Of a DNA stretch of 22,864 nucleotides, positions 5,572 to 9,598 are shown in pieces. The DNA comes from a virus. The stretch lies in the IMG/VR virus record IMGVR_UViG_3300022887_000006, positions 1 to 22,864 of that record. One strand, given 5' to 3'. The notes under the pieces are model-generated. The model searched no databases. It was not told where the DNA came from and was given only the letters and a program-made list of their open reading frames with translations. The position numbers and the translations under genes are program-made. Positions within the stretch are counted from its first letter, which is position 1. Each line of letters starts with the position of its first letter.

Positions 5572-6029
5572 TAGCAGATACTGATTTCATTTGGTATAGC
5601 AACATCTATATTTACTCCCCATCCAGCTAACTCATTCTCAAATCTGTCTTTAAATGGTTGAGCTGAAGGAGCGTCAAGCAACTGAAGCTTATCAGTAAAC
5701 ATATCTCCTCTTCTTAATTGTTGAATAACATCATTAACCACCTGTAATTGACTGTTATAAACGTCTTGCAAGTTGTCATTACCATTAATAACATCCTTAG
5801 CAGGTAAATCTTTATTGTAATCAACCACATCTAAAGCAAGTAATTGTATTGTGAAACGCATTATTGGGCCATCAAATACCACATTAGTAATGTTTAAGTG
5901 GCTTAATGGAAATATAGTAGTCTTATTTAAGTCTACATCAGACAAATCTCCATAGGTAACAGTAAAAACATTAGGGTTAGTCCTTAGTCTGTCCTTTAAT
6001 TTATCTATTATATCGTATATCTGTGTCAT
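5571..6029 (-). CDS. Putative tail completion/terminator-type protein
   Basis: 152 aa, ATG at 6029. The N-terminus (MTQIYDIIDKLKDRLRTNPN) is a helix followed by alternating beta strands, with a QVVNDVIQQLRRGD helix at about 97-110 and a C-terminal strand. Small alpha/beta proteins beginning with such a helix and lying beside a gp10-like gene are often tail terminators or minor tail proteins; here this is position-based inference. The start codon lies inside the last unit of a 31-bp tandem repeat (6008-6100), so the repeat forms both its leader and first codons. Confidence 0.5.
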   Translation of the reverse strand: MTQIYDIIDKLKDRLRTNPNVFTVTYGDLSDVDLNKTTIFPLSHLNITNVVFDGPIMRFTIQLLALDVVDYNKDLPAKDVINGNDNLQDVYNSQLQVVNDVIQQLRRGDMFTDKLQLLDAPSAQPFKDRFENELAGWGVNIDVAIPNEISIC

Positions 6030-6100
6030 TATTGTATATTATATCGTATGGCCGTATCGTTATTATGTATTATATCGTATGGCTGTATCGTTATTTGTTT
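6008..6100. repeat. Three 31-bp tandem repeats across leader and start codon
   Basis: Units begin TTATATCGTAT at 6008, 6039 and 6070 (plus strand), exactly 31 bp apart. Units 2 and 3 share about 24 bases of sequence including GTATCGTTATT. The leftmost unit contains the ATG (6027-6029) of the downstream gene, so the array spans from the end of the frameshifted gene (6091) into the next coding region. Confidence 0.85.
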
Positions 6101-6887
6101 TTATTACTAGCCTGTTTTATCATTTTAGCCTCTATATCGTTCTTTTCCTTCTCAAAGCTTAACCACATTAAGCAGGTATGTAATGAAACTTTGGTAACTT
6201 CATCAAGTTTTCTGACGTCTCCTCCAGCAAGTCCATAAATTGACTGATACCAGCCCCATTTTCTACCAAAGCCTGCCGTGAGGGAGAAGGTTCCTTGTTC
6301 ATCAGAGCCTCCTCCATTAAAGAGTTCATCGTATATTTTGACAATTTCTTCCCTAAACGATAAAAAAAAACAATAGAACCTAATGCTACATTAACAGGAG
6401 CATCTTTCATAACTTCTGCCCACTTCTCAGAGCCTTCATATTCAGCTATAATGTACTTACCTCCCTTACCAGCTATAATAGGTCTATACATAACAGCCAT
6501 AGCTTTATGCATATTATCCCAATCAGAAATATAAGACTCTAAGTCTACATATTCACCCATAGAAATCTTATCTAAGTTAGGTATGAAACCAAACTCAACA
6601 GTAACCCCATCAGAACCAGTCATAGTAAATCTATTAACCAAGTCACTCTTCTGATCAAAGCAAACAGATAGCTGTTTAAGAACAGACTCAAACATTGATA
6701 CAGGTAATCCATAGCTCTCCTTTAAGGTTAAGCCACAGAATATCTCTAATGCTTTTAAGTTCAAGAACTCATTGTTCTTGTTGCCCTCTTCAATATTCTT
6801 AGAGATGCTTAGATACTTCTGATACTGATGCAATTTAATTGCACTTAGGTCTTGAGGTATGCTTACTTCTAATTCTATTACTGCCAT
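6091..6887 (-). CDS. Tail assembly chaperone-like -1 frameshift fusion (265 aa)
   Basis: The zero frame from ATG 6887 reaches a T-TTT-TTT heptamer at 6369-6363. A -1 slip there enters a frame that stays open for 90 more codons (from 6363) to TAA at 6091-6093, giving 175+90=265 residues. The -1 extension contains FGRKWGWYQSIYGLAGGDV and VSLHTCLMWLSFEKEKN, a well-formed protein sequence with Trp/Tyr/Leu spacing that I associate with tail-assembly-chaperone extensions in phages of this kind. That frame has an upstream stop at 6391-6393 and no ATG or GTG before residue 66 of the extension, so it cannot be expressed alone. The extension fills what would otherwise be a gap before the next gene. This mirrors lambda G/GT. 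A homopolymer miscount (10 T instead of 9) would also give this product. Confidence 0.7.
6168..6887 (-). CDS. Tail assembly chaperone-like protein, unshifted product (239 aa)
   Basis: Zero-frame product from the same ATG (6887) ending at TAA 6168. The first 175 residues are shared with the frameshift fusion; the last 64 (RLGKKLSKYT through PKFHYIPA) are unique. The N-terminal half starts MAVIELEVSIPQDLSAIKL and contains a SISKNIEEG helix and an acidic GEYVDLESYISDWDN segment. In siphovirus tail modules the shorter product binds tape-measure protein in excess and the longer one recruits tail-tube subunits; that role here is inferred from the frameshift architecture. It is the first gene of the visible tail string and follows a 465-bp repeat-bearing non-coding region that may hold its promoter. 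Confidence 0.6.
   Translation of the reverse strand: MAVIELEVSIPQDLSAIKLHQYQKYLSISKNIEEGNKNNEFLNLKALEIFCGLTLKESYGLPVSMFESVLKQLSVCFDQKSDLVNRFTMTGSDGVTVEFGFIPNLDKISMGEYVDLESYISDWDNMHKAMAVMYRPIIAGKGGKYIIAEYEGSEKWAEVMKDAPVNVALGSIVFFYRLGKKLSKYTMNSLMEEALMNKEPSPSRQALVENGAGISQFMDLLEETSENLMKLPKFHYIPA
6363..6369 (-). other. Slippery heptamer T TTT TTT for -1 frameshift
   Basis: In minus-strand reading the codons are GTT TTT TTT TAT (6371-6360) inside a run of nine T. The heptamer with the zero-frame boundary T|TTT|TTT matches the X-XXY-YYZ rule for simultaneous slippage. I did not fold the downstream RNA for a stimulatory structure. Confidence 0.65.
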
Positions 6888-7352
6888 AAATTATACTTGT
6901 AGTATGATAACTGATTTACTTCCTTTTTGTTTTACTCTACATATAACTATAGATAAATATTATATATCTCTACATACAACTATAGATAAACCTTATAGTT
7001 GGTAACTACACTATAGATAAATAGTATTAAGATACAGCCTAATATATAAAACAAAAAAGGTACTTTATAGTTATCTTAGTGTAACATTCCTTGATCAGTA
7101 AGAGGCACATAGTTCAAGTTAAAATCAGTATAGCAATCCTCAATTAATTGTTATTTATTTCCTTTAGTTTCCCAACTAGGATAGCTGTTAAAACTCGTTA
7201 AAGAGACGCAAGTGGGTAAGCGTGTAGATTTTGCCAACAATGGATTTGGCTACAGTTTAATGATGGGAGAACTTCTCTACATAGGTGATTATATTTTTTA
7301 TATATTTTCCTTTGATAGGTGAAGTGGGTTTGGTTAATAAGATAAATATATT
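6888..7352. other. Non-coding divergent region between tail module and GIY-YIG gene
   Basis: 465 bases with no convincing gene, lying between the minus-strand tail genes and the plus-strand nuclease gene. The left third carries the ACTATAGATAAA repeats (6946-7021). A small inverted repeat GCCAA/TTGGC lies at 7233-7250. A frame at about 7185-7322 reads protein-like but lacks a normal start. No TAnnTTTG promoter of the consensus form was found on either strand. Confidence 0.6.
6946..7021 (+). repeat. Three copies of ACTATAGATAAA at about 3 helical turns
   Basis: Exact copies at 6946-6957, 6979-6990 and 7010-7021 (spacing 33 and 31 bp). The first two sit in a longer 33-bp unit beginning CTCTACATA. 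The second copy also belongs to a perfect 8-bp inverted repeat, CAACTATA (6977-6984) with TATAGTTG (6994-7001). The site lies 60-135 bp upstream of the tail-module ATG at 6887, consistent with an operator or activator-binding array. Confidence 0.75.
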
Positions 7353-7811
7353 ATGTATTATAAAAAAAGAAACAAAGTAGGCAGAAAGTCGCTTAACAAG
7401 TCAATAGATATAGAGGTCGCAAGGCTGGAGTCTGAACGGAAGCCTAAGACTAAAAGAAACGGAACACTTATACAAGTAGAACAAAAAGATATAGACACTA
7501 ATAAAGAAATATCTGATCTACTTGATATGAAGTCTGCTAAAAGAATTATAAATAAACGTACAGACTCTAATAGATTTTCTATGGAGTATTTTAATTCTCC
7601 CTGCGTATATAGATTATATAAGGAAGGCGTACTTGTATATGTAGGTCAAACTAAATGTCTAGCCTCAAGAATAGGTAAGCACACAGAGGATAAAGACTTC
7701 GACTCATTCGATGTATATTCTCATATAGAGAATGAATCAGTAAGGCTTAACGTGGAACGAAGACTTATTGAATCTTCTAATCCACTCTACAATAAACAGC
7801 ATAATAATTAA
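7353..7811 (+). CDS. GIY-YIG family endonuclease
   Basis: 152 aa on the plus strand, opposite to its neighbours. Residues 1-80 are basic and low-complexity, probably a DNA-binding or linker part. The C-terminal catalytic domain shows CVY (84-86) and YVG (96-98) as the GIY and YIG elements, then GQT, R106, H110, E135 in a helix (NVERRLIE) and P144/N147 in the closing PLYN. These match the fold's catalytic Tyr, Arg, metal-binding Glu and Asn, so it is probably active. Free-standing GIY-YIG enzymes in phages are often homing endonucleases; the isolated position, opposite strand and surrounding repeats fit a mobile gene. No intron core was recognised around it. Confidence 0.85.
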   Translation: MYYKKRNKVGRKSLNKSIDIEVARLESERKPKTKRNGTLIQVEQKDIDTNKEISDLLDMKSAKRIINKRTDSNRFSMEYFNSPCVYRLYKEGVLVYVGQTKCLASRIGKHTEDKDFDSFDVYSHIENESVRLNVERRLIESSNPLYNKQHNN

Positions 7812-8887: not shown

Positions 8888-9598
8888 TTAATTTATTACA
8901 AAGCCGCTTGTATCTTTGCGAGCTTTTCCTTTTGCCTTAAGCCCTAATATGACTCCTTTATTGTAAATCATTAGAATATCCGAGGAATCTCCATTAATTA
9001 CTTTTGCACCTTTGTACATTGTAGGTAGGTCTCCACCAAAGACGGCTGCAACATTAATGCGTAAACCTATTGCTTCATTGGTTTCTTTGTCATTATCCTC
9101 AGCCCTACTAAATGTTAAAAAGTAATTAGGGTGACCTAAGTACTTTTTTGCTTTGCCTAAAATCTTGGTATAATCATAAAAAACCGCAAAATCCTTTAAA
9201 GTGCTAACATCTAAGTCAGCATATTTTTGCAACAAATAAATAAAATCAATGTCTGAGGTTCCATTTAATCTAAATGCTATTTTCTTGTTTAGTTTCTTTG
9301 CTTTGGTGTATTGCTTTAAAATCTCATATGATAACTGCAGAACAAAAGCTTTTTTATCATTCAGATAGTGCTCTGTTTTATTTTGTCTTGCTTTTTGCAC
9401 ATTAGAAAATGCACCGCGGCCAGCGGTATACAGGCAGGCTGCAGCGCAGCCCTTGGACGCCTTAGGGCAGATATTGATTCCTTTACTGTTTAAATTATAA
9501 GGACTTAAGTACATTATAAATGTTTCTAAGCTATTTTTTGCAGTTTTGGCGTTAGTGTTTCCTTTACTGAGGATTGTTTTAACTTTTATGTTTTCCAT
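8888..9598 (-). CDS. Gp88-family phage protein
   Basis: 236 aa, ATG 9598. The N-terminal part has NICPKASKGCAAACLYTAGRG, i.e. C44-x6-C51-x3-C55 followed by TAGRG, then a basic helix (RQNKTEHYLNDKKAF). Further blocks are FRLNGTSDIDF, VFYDYTKI, NYFLTFSRAEDN and a C-terminal DSSDILMIYNKGVI/LGLKAKGKARKD. These match my memory of the mycobacteriophage Gp88-type family (Pfam Gp88), widespread in phages with no known function. The three Cys may bind metal. It is the second gene of a self-contained operon (promoter 9846-9877, terminator 8341-8364), 19 bases after the 65-aa gene. The family call is from memory, with no search. Confidence 0.75.
   Translation of the reverse strand: MENIKVKTILSKGNTNAKTAKNSLETFIMYLSPYNLNSKGINICPKASKGCAAACLYTAGRGAFSNVQKARQNKTEHYLNDKKAFVLQLSYEILKQYTKAKKLNKKIAFRLNGTSDIDFIYLLQKYADLDVSTLKDFAVFYDYTKILGKAKKYLGHPNYFLTFSRAEDNDKETNEAIGLRINVAAVFGGDLPTMYKGAKVINGDSSDILMIYNKGVILGLKAKGKARKDTSGFVIN

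Follow-up and report, generated by a model that had tools for sequence, protein, structure and literature searches.

Evidence for a programmed -1 frameshift at an invariant T run in a probable tail-assembly chaperone gene of Bacteroidetes phages

The window analysed here, a virus record of 22,864 bases, carries a chaperone-like gene that in our estimate (probability about 0.8) makes two products by a programmed -1 fusion, whichever level slips, ribosome or RNA polymerase. The programmed frameshift at the T run is in itself nearly certain, as judged from sequence comparison, and a function in tail assembly is likely, mainly by analogy from the two-product design and from the neighbourhood of the gene. 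We propose that most readings of this gene of a tailed Bacteroidetes phage would give a 239-aa protein, and that a fraction would slip by -1 at a run of nine T (T9) to give a 265-aa fusion of 175 plus 90 residues. If lambda gpG/gpGT is a guide, the tape-measure protein would be coated by the short form, and recruitment of the tail-tube subunit would fall to the long form. The slip may be ribosomal: two tRNA-Phe would then shift in tandem on T TTT TTT with no RNA structure involved, as at the P2 and SPP1 sites.

The features of the gene are collected in Table 1. The zero frame runs on the minus strand from an ATG at 6887 to a TAA at 6170-6168, a total of 239 codons, and crosses the slip site, G TTTTTTTTT A (G at 6371, nine T at 6370-6362, A at 6361), in the codons GTT TTT TTT TAT, so that the heptamer T TTT TTT stands in phase. 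The first-pass annotation of this DNA had placed an in-phase heptamer at 6369-6363, inside the T9 run, and its coordinates are exact to the base. It had also described a -1 frame of 90 codons with a stop upstream (6391-6393) and no early start, all of which reads as described: the frame is open from 6390, gives 90 residues when read from the TTA at 6363, and ends in the stop at 6093-6091, while its first ATG is codon 66, which overlaps the zero-frame stop (TAATG). The predicted long form joins residues 1-175 of the zero frame to this 90-residue domain, and is 265 aa in length.

Table 1. Features of the two-product gene in the window
Feature	Position	Strand	Remark
Zero-frame gene, short form, 239 aa	6168..6887	(-)	phrog_32199 (unknown function); kept in all relatives
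T9 run	6362..6370	(-)	at least 9 T in 340/341 distinct relatives
In-phase slippery heptamer T TTT TTT	6363..6369	(-)	0 synonymous differences/308 four-fold comparisons in slip codons
-1 frame domain, 90 residues + stop	6091..6363	(-)	second part of long form
TAA closing -1 frame upstream of slip site	6391..6393	(-)	read in sequence
Dual-coding stretch, ~64 codons, ~190 nt	6171..6363	(-)	selection in both frames

That this arrangement is a programmed -1 fusion with two products, as first suggested from the single sequence, is strongly supported by comparative data. Viral contigs were scanned with each frame separately, and wherever both parts were present the second lay in the -1 frame at the same T run (156 of 156 loci); a search with the 90-aa -1 peptide alone retrieves the same family as the zero frame. 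A wider set comprises 341 distinct loci, collected by profile HMMs for which the T run was no requirement, by scans that started from distant members and by a single scan of bacterial genome contigs; 340 of them have both the -1 relation and a T run of at least nine. The run is nine T long at 303 of these loci, ten at 36 and twelve at one, the longer runs being accommodated by codon changes that keep the phase (for example GTT TTT TTT TTC, ATG TTT TTT TTT TGG, ATT TTT TTT TTT TAC). It had been supposed that a run of another length might betray a simple fused or broken gene, or that homologues with the -1 peptide might be missing; instead, the frame relation is preserved whether the run has 9, 10 or 12 T, and the -1 peptide, conserved from the very first residues on, occurs at the same place in hundreds of homologues. 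The sole exception, locus L242, differs from its near-identical sister L250 by a one-T indel, real or error (T9 against T10), and has lost the frame relation.

The loci from genome contigs come from assemblies named Flagellimonas, Galbibacter, Winogradskyella and Psychroflexus, from an unnamed Bacteroidetes and from one assembly named Epsilonproteobacteria. Isolated phages are also represented: the Nonlabens (Persicivirga) phages P12024S and P12024L carry true homologues (gp38/gp39), and the P12024S sequence has the same T9 run and -1 relation, though the zero-frame tail is shorter in these phages (25 codons). GenBank lists gp38 and gp39 of both phages as two separate hypothetical proteins, gp39 starting from an internal ATG, and on our reading these isolate annotations are wrong at this gene. 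In both phages the conserved -1 frame begins about 26 codons before the annotated ATG of gp39, at the T run (L168 13001-13695, L169 3001-3695).

The first-pass annotation had implied a dual-coding stretch of about 190 bases (6363-6171), and tests of four-fold divergence, codon position and recoding indicate that this overlap of about 64 codons is under selection in both frames. Sequence pairs are not independent, so the figures that follow are effect sizes, not exact probabilities. In 446 sequence pairs of moderate divergence, the proportion of differences among conserved four-fold codons is 0.47 upstream, 0.21 in the overlap (-1 reading) and 0.44 downstream, and is 0/308 in the slip codons. 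Changes at codon positions 1/2/3 amount to 0.15/0.10/0.38 upstream, 0.21/0.14/0.23 in the overlap and 0.16/0.09/0.31 downstream, so that the third-position excess disappears in the overlap only. When the -1 codons of 71 representatives below 85% identity are synonymously recoded, a zero frame that stays open equally long has a median probability of 0.0055 per sequence; in the reverse recoding, with the zero-frame protein kept, the median probability of an open -1 frame is 0.001. Likeness between relatives in the zero-frame tail also exceeds the recoding prediction (mean z 2.9, with 68% of 250 pairs exceeding every one of 100 recodings). A strongly conserved -1-frame motif, KWGWYQSIY, forces part of this likeness, and the recoding test allows for it.

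The level at which slippage occurs is a closer question. We give the ribosome about an even chance and RNA polymerase somewhat less than that, the ribosome being only slightly favoured, and the invariant run of at least nine T means that it cannot simply be preferred. Were RNA polymerase to slip at T9, some mRNAs would gain an extra U and normal translation would then give the fusion, with the same two products as a result. An extra U at a U run leads to a longer product in this way in Shigella mxiE (PMC1088944, PMC5009743), a gene of unrelated function in which slippage was measured, whereas here it is only a rival reading. Fewer than nine T were never seen at the 340 loci, and all three phases of the run occur; seven T would suffice for a ribosomal heptamer, and the floor here is nine. 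TTC is never found in the Phe pair, against 22% among the other Phe codons of the gene, although TTC as the second Phe codon would alter neither protein if TTA follows in the -1 frame. In the flanking ORFs (about 0.45-0.54 Mb) no other stretch of T reaches nine, with 7-8 expected from synonymous shuffling, and in-phase T7/T8 runs are present in them, at a depletion that in these small numbers is no stronger than for out-of-phase runs. Folding energies gave no signal of downstream RNA structure, and none was detected at the site among nested structures; a stimulatory structure often accompanies programmed -1 frameshifting but is dispensable. A homopolymer of about nine or more A/T, kept in homologues, as expected of a gene with transcriptional slippage, is present here. 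Selection against slippage is evident from length nine in many bacterial genomes (PMC1088944), and E. coli shows a depletion of UUUUUUU whatever the frame, one offered reason being transcriptional slippage (PMC4066793).

Set against this, the tail-gene frameshifts in the literature surveyed are treated as ribosomal, some of them at T-rich heptamers (PMC5009743, PMC3091744, PMC6316719), and we have counted for the ribosome both the TTTTTTG of the P2 tail genes, a slip site with no structure (PMC3091744), and the UUUUUUC of the SPP1 tail genes (PMC6316719). Moreover, the residues that flank the Phe pair (V/L/I/F on its N-terminal side, Y/W/F/L on the other) would suffice to extend seven T to nine. 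Relatives using a slip site of another type would have settled the matter in favour of the ribosome; three further profile scans of viral sequence and a genome scan yielded none. A tentative suggestion is that in this large family of Bacteroidetes phages the tail-chaperone pair arises through slippage of RNA polymerase at the invariant T run of nine or more, and not through ribosomal frameshifting; if true, the ratio of the two chaperones would be set at transcription. The invariant run enables a clean test between ribosomal and RNA polymerase slippage in a phage assembly gene. Long homopolymers of the other kind are also strongly depleted in coding sequence, with 3 A runs of at least nine seen against about 46 expected in the flanking ORFs of about 278 loci.

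The neighbourhood of the gene can be followed on a relative of 36,784 bases (36.8 kb) that holds it at 100% protein identity. The order there is large terminase, GP88-family gene, chaperone-like gene, ORFs of 152, 166, 279, 361 and 1216 aa, and onward a 716-aa tape-measure-like protein followed by head-protease-like, capsid-like and portal genes. In the window the GP88-family gene (PF17338), assigned on the identical relative, lies at 8888-9598 (-), between the terminase and the chaperone-like gene. The tape-measure-like gene is downstream in the same late structural block, six ORFs away and not adjacent; its product is called tape-measure-like by size and sequence character only, and no library entry names it as a tape measure.

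Protein searches returned a sole match, to phrog_32199, of unknown function, and sequence searches of Pfam, NCBIfam and PDB gave no informative match, and none to known chaperone families; as these are themselves highly diverged, the result leaves room for a relation to them. In the AlphaFold model of the zero-frame protein (mean pLDDT 83) the slip site falls within a helix, 165-197, and the tail is of low confidence. The -1 domain is modelled as all helical (pLDDT 72), and a Foldseek search with the latter model gave nothing significant. Structural alignment places residues 11-81 on the HK97 tail assembly chaperone 2ob9 with a Z of 4.0 (63 residues at 2.8 A), ranking second among 782 chains; by Foldseek the match is weak (E 1.3), and this modelled fold offers a hint, not proof, of a chaperone role. 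A programmed two-product gene that is not a tail-assembly chaperone would agree with the lack of detected homology to known chaperones, and with a position that follows the terminase region and precedes the tape-measure-like gene by several genes. We nevertheless regard this as unlikely: a short form and a long form with a -1 C-terminal domain, encoded in the late block, is the typical tail-chaperone pattern (PMC5009743), and the match to the HK97 protein, though weak, points the same way.

By analogy, the gene would work like lambda G/GT, P2 E/E+E' and SPP1 17.5/17.5*, a likeness of mechanism and not of demonstrated descent. The first-pass annotation had equated its architecture with lambda G/GT (PMC5009743). 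The comparison stands as regards design, with one start and a short and a long form made by a -1 shift; it does not extend to sequence, as no relation to known chaperones is detectable, or to position, the tape-measure-like gene being several genes away. Lambda also has another slippery sequence and a measured ratio of 30:1, and its shift lies near the 3' end of G, so that there is little overlap there. In SPP1 (PMC6316719) the tail chaperones are likewise made by a -1 shift, at the U-rich heptamer UUUUUUC, and share 112 residues, after which the 173-aa short form has a 61-residue zero-frame tail, again with a long overlap. Judged by this SPP1 tail (173 minus 112 residues), a long zero-frame tail is not unusual. 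SPP1 differs in the single C of its heptamer, in a longer -1 extension and in adjoining the tape-measure gene, and no sequence relation to it is detectable. In P2 (PMC3091744) a -1 shift at TTTTTTG with no predicted structure gives products of 91 and 142 aa from one start, but P2 is a myovirus, E/E+E' lies between the tube and tape-measure genes, and here too sequence relation is undetectable. A literature search, the scope of which did not include the P12024 genome paper or Xu et al. 2004, found no description of the present frameshift. The family is new and unannotated and the kind is already known, the invariant run of at least nine T being the one surprising feature.

A restart at the zero-frame stop (TAATG), with the -1 part as a separate gene, is in effect how gp39 of P12024S/L is annotated, and TAATG does occur in the window and in P12024S. 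This reading is extremely improbable and we consider it ruled out, contradicted by conservation: a restart-type overlap of stop and ATG is present at only 70 of 335 loci (21%), and restart accounts neither for the invariance of the T run nor for the conservation of the -1 frame over its first 65 residues. Early ATG, GTG or TTG codons are absent from the -1 frame at 232 of the 335 loci, and an early ATG at 324. A homopolymer sequencing error or a broken gene, for which the lost frame relation of L242 (T9 against T10 in its sister) might speak, is more improbable still, and is ruled out by the agreement of 340 of 341 distinct loci across hundreds of assemblies and in isolates, by T10 and T12 runs that hold phase through codon changes, and by selection on both frames; a miscount would alter the frame relation, which is seen only in L242, so length errors are not the source of the pattern.

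A widespread phage family listed as unknown (phrog_32199) thereby gains a likely role and a correct two-product structure, and a run of at least nine T plus the -1 domain would provide a marker for tail modules of Bacteroidetes phages.

The surroundings of the gene in the window show some further features. Between the -1 stop and the next gene, at 6001-6095, an A/T-rich unit of about 31 bases with TTATATCGTAT is present in three tandem copies. Upstream of the gene, at 6935-7027, ACTATAGATAAATATTAT occurs three times at a spacing of 31-33 bases, and these repeats may be regulatory. Just upstream, on the strand opposite to the late genes, lies a GIY-YIG endonuclease-like ORF (7353-7811, +), possibly a free-standing homing endonuclease.
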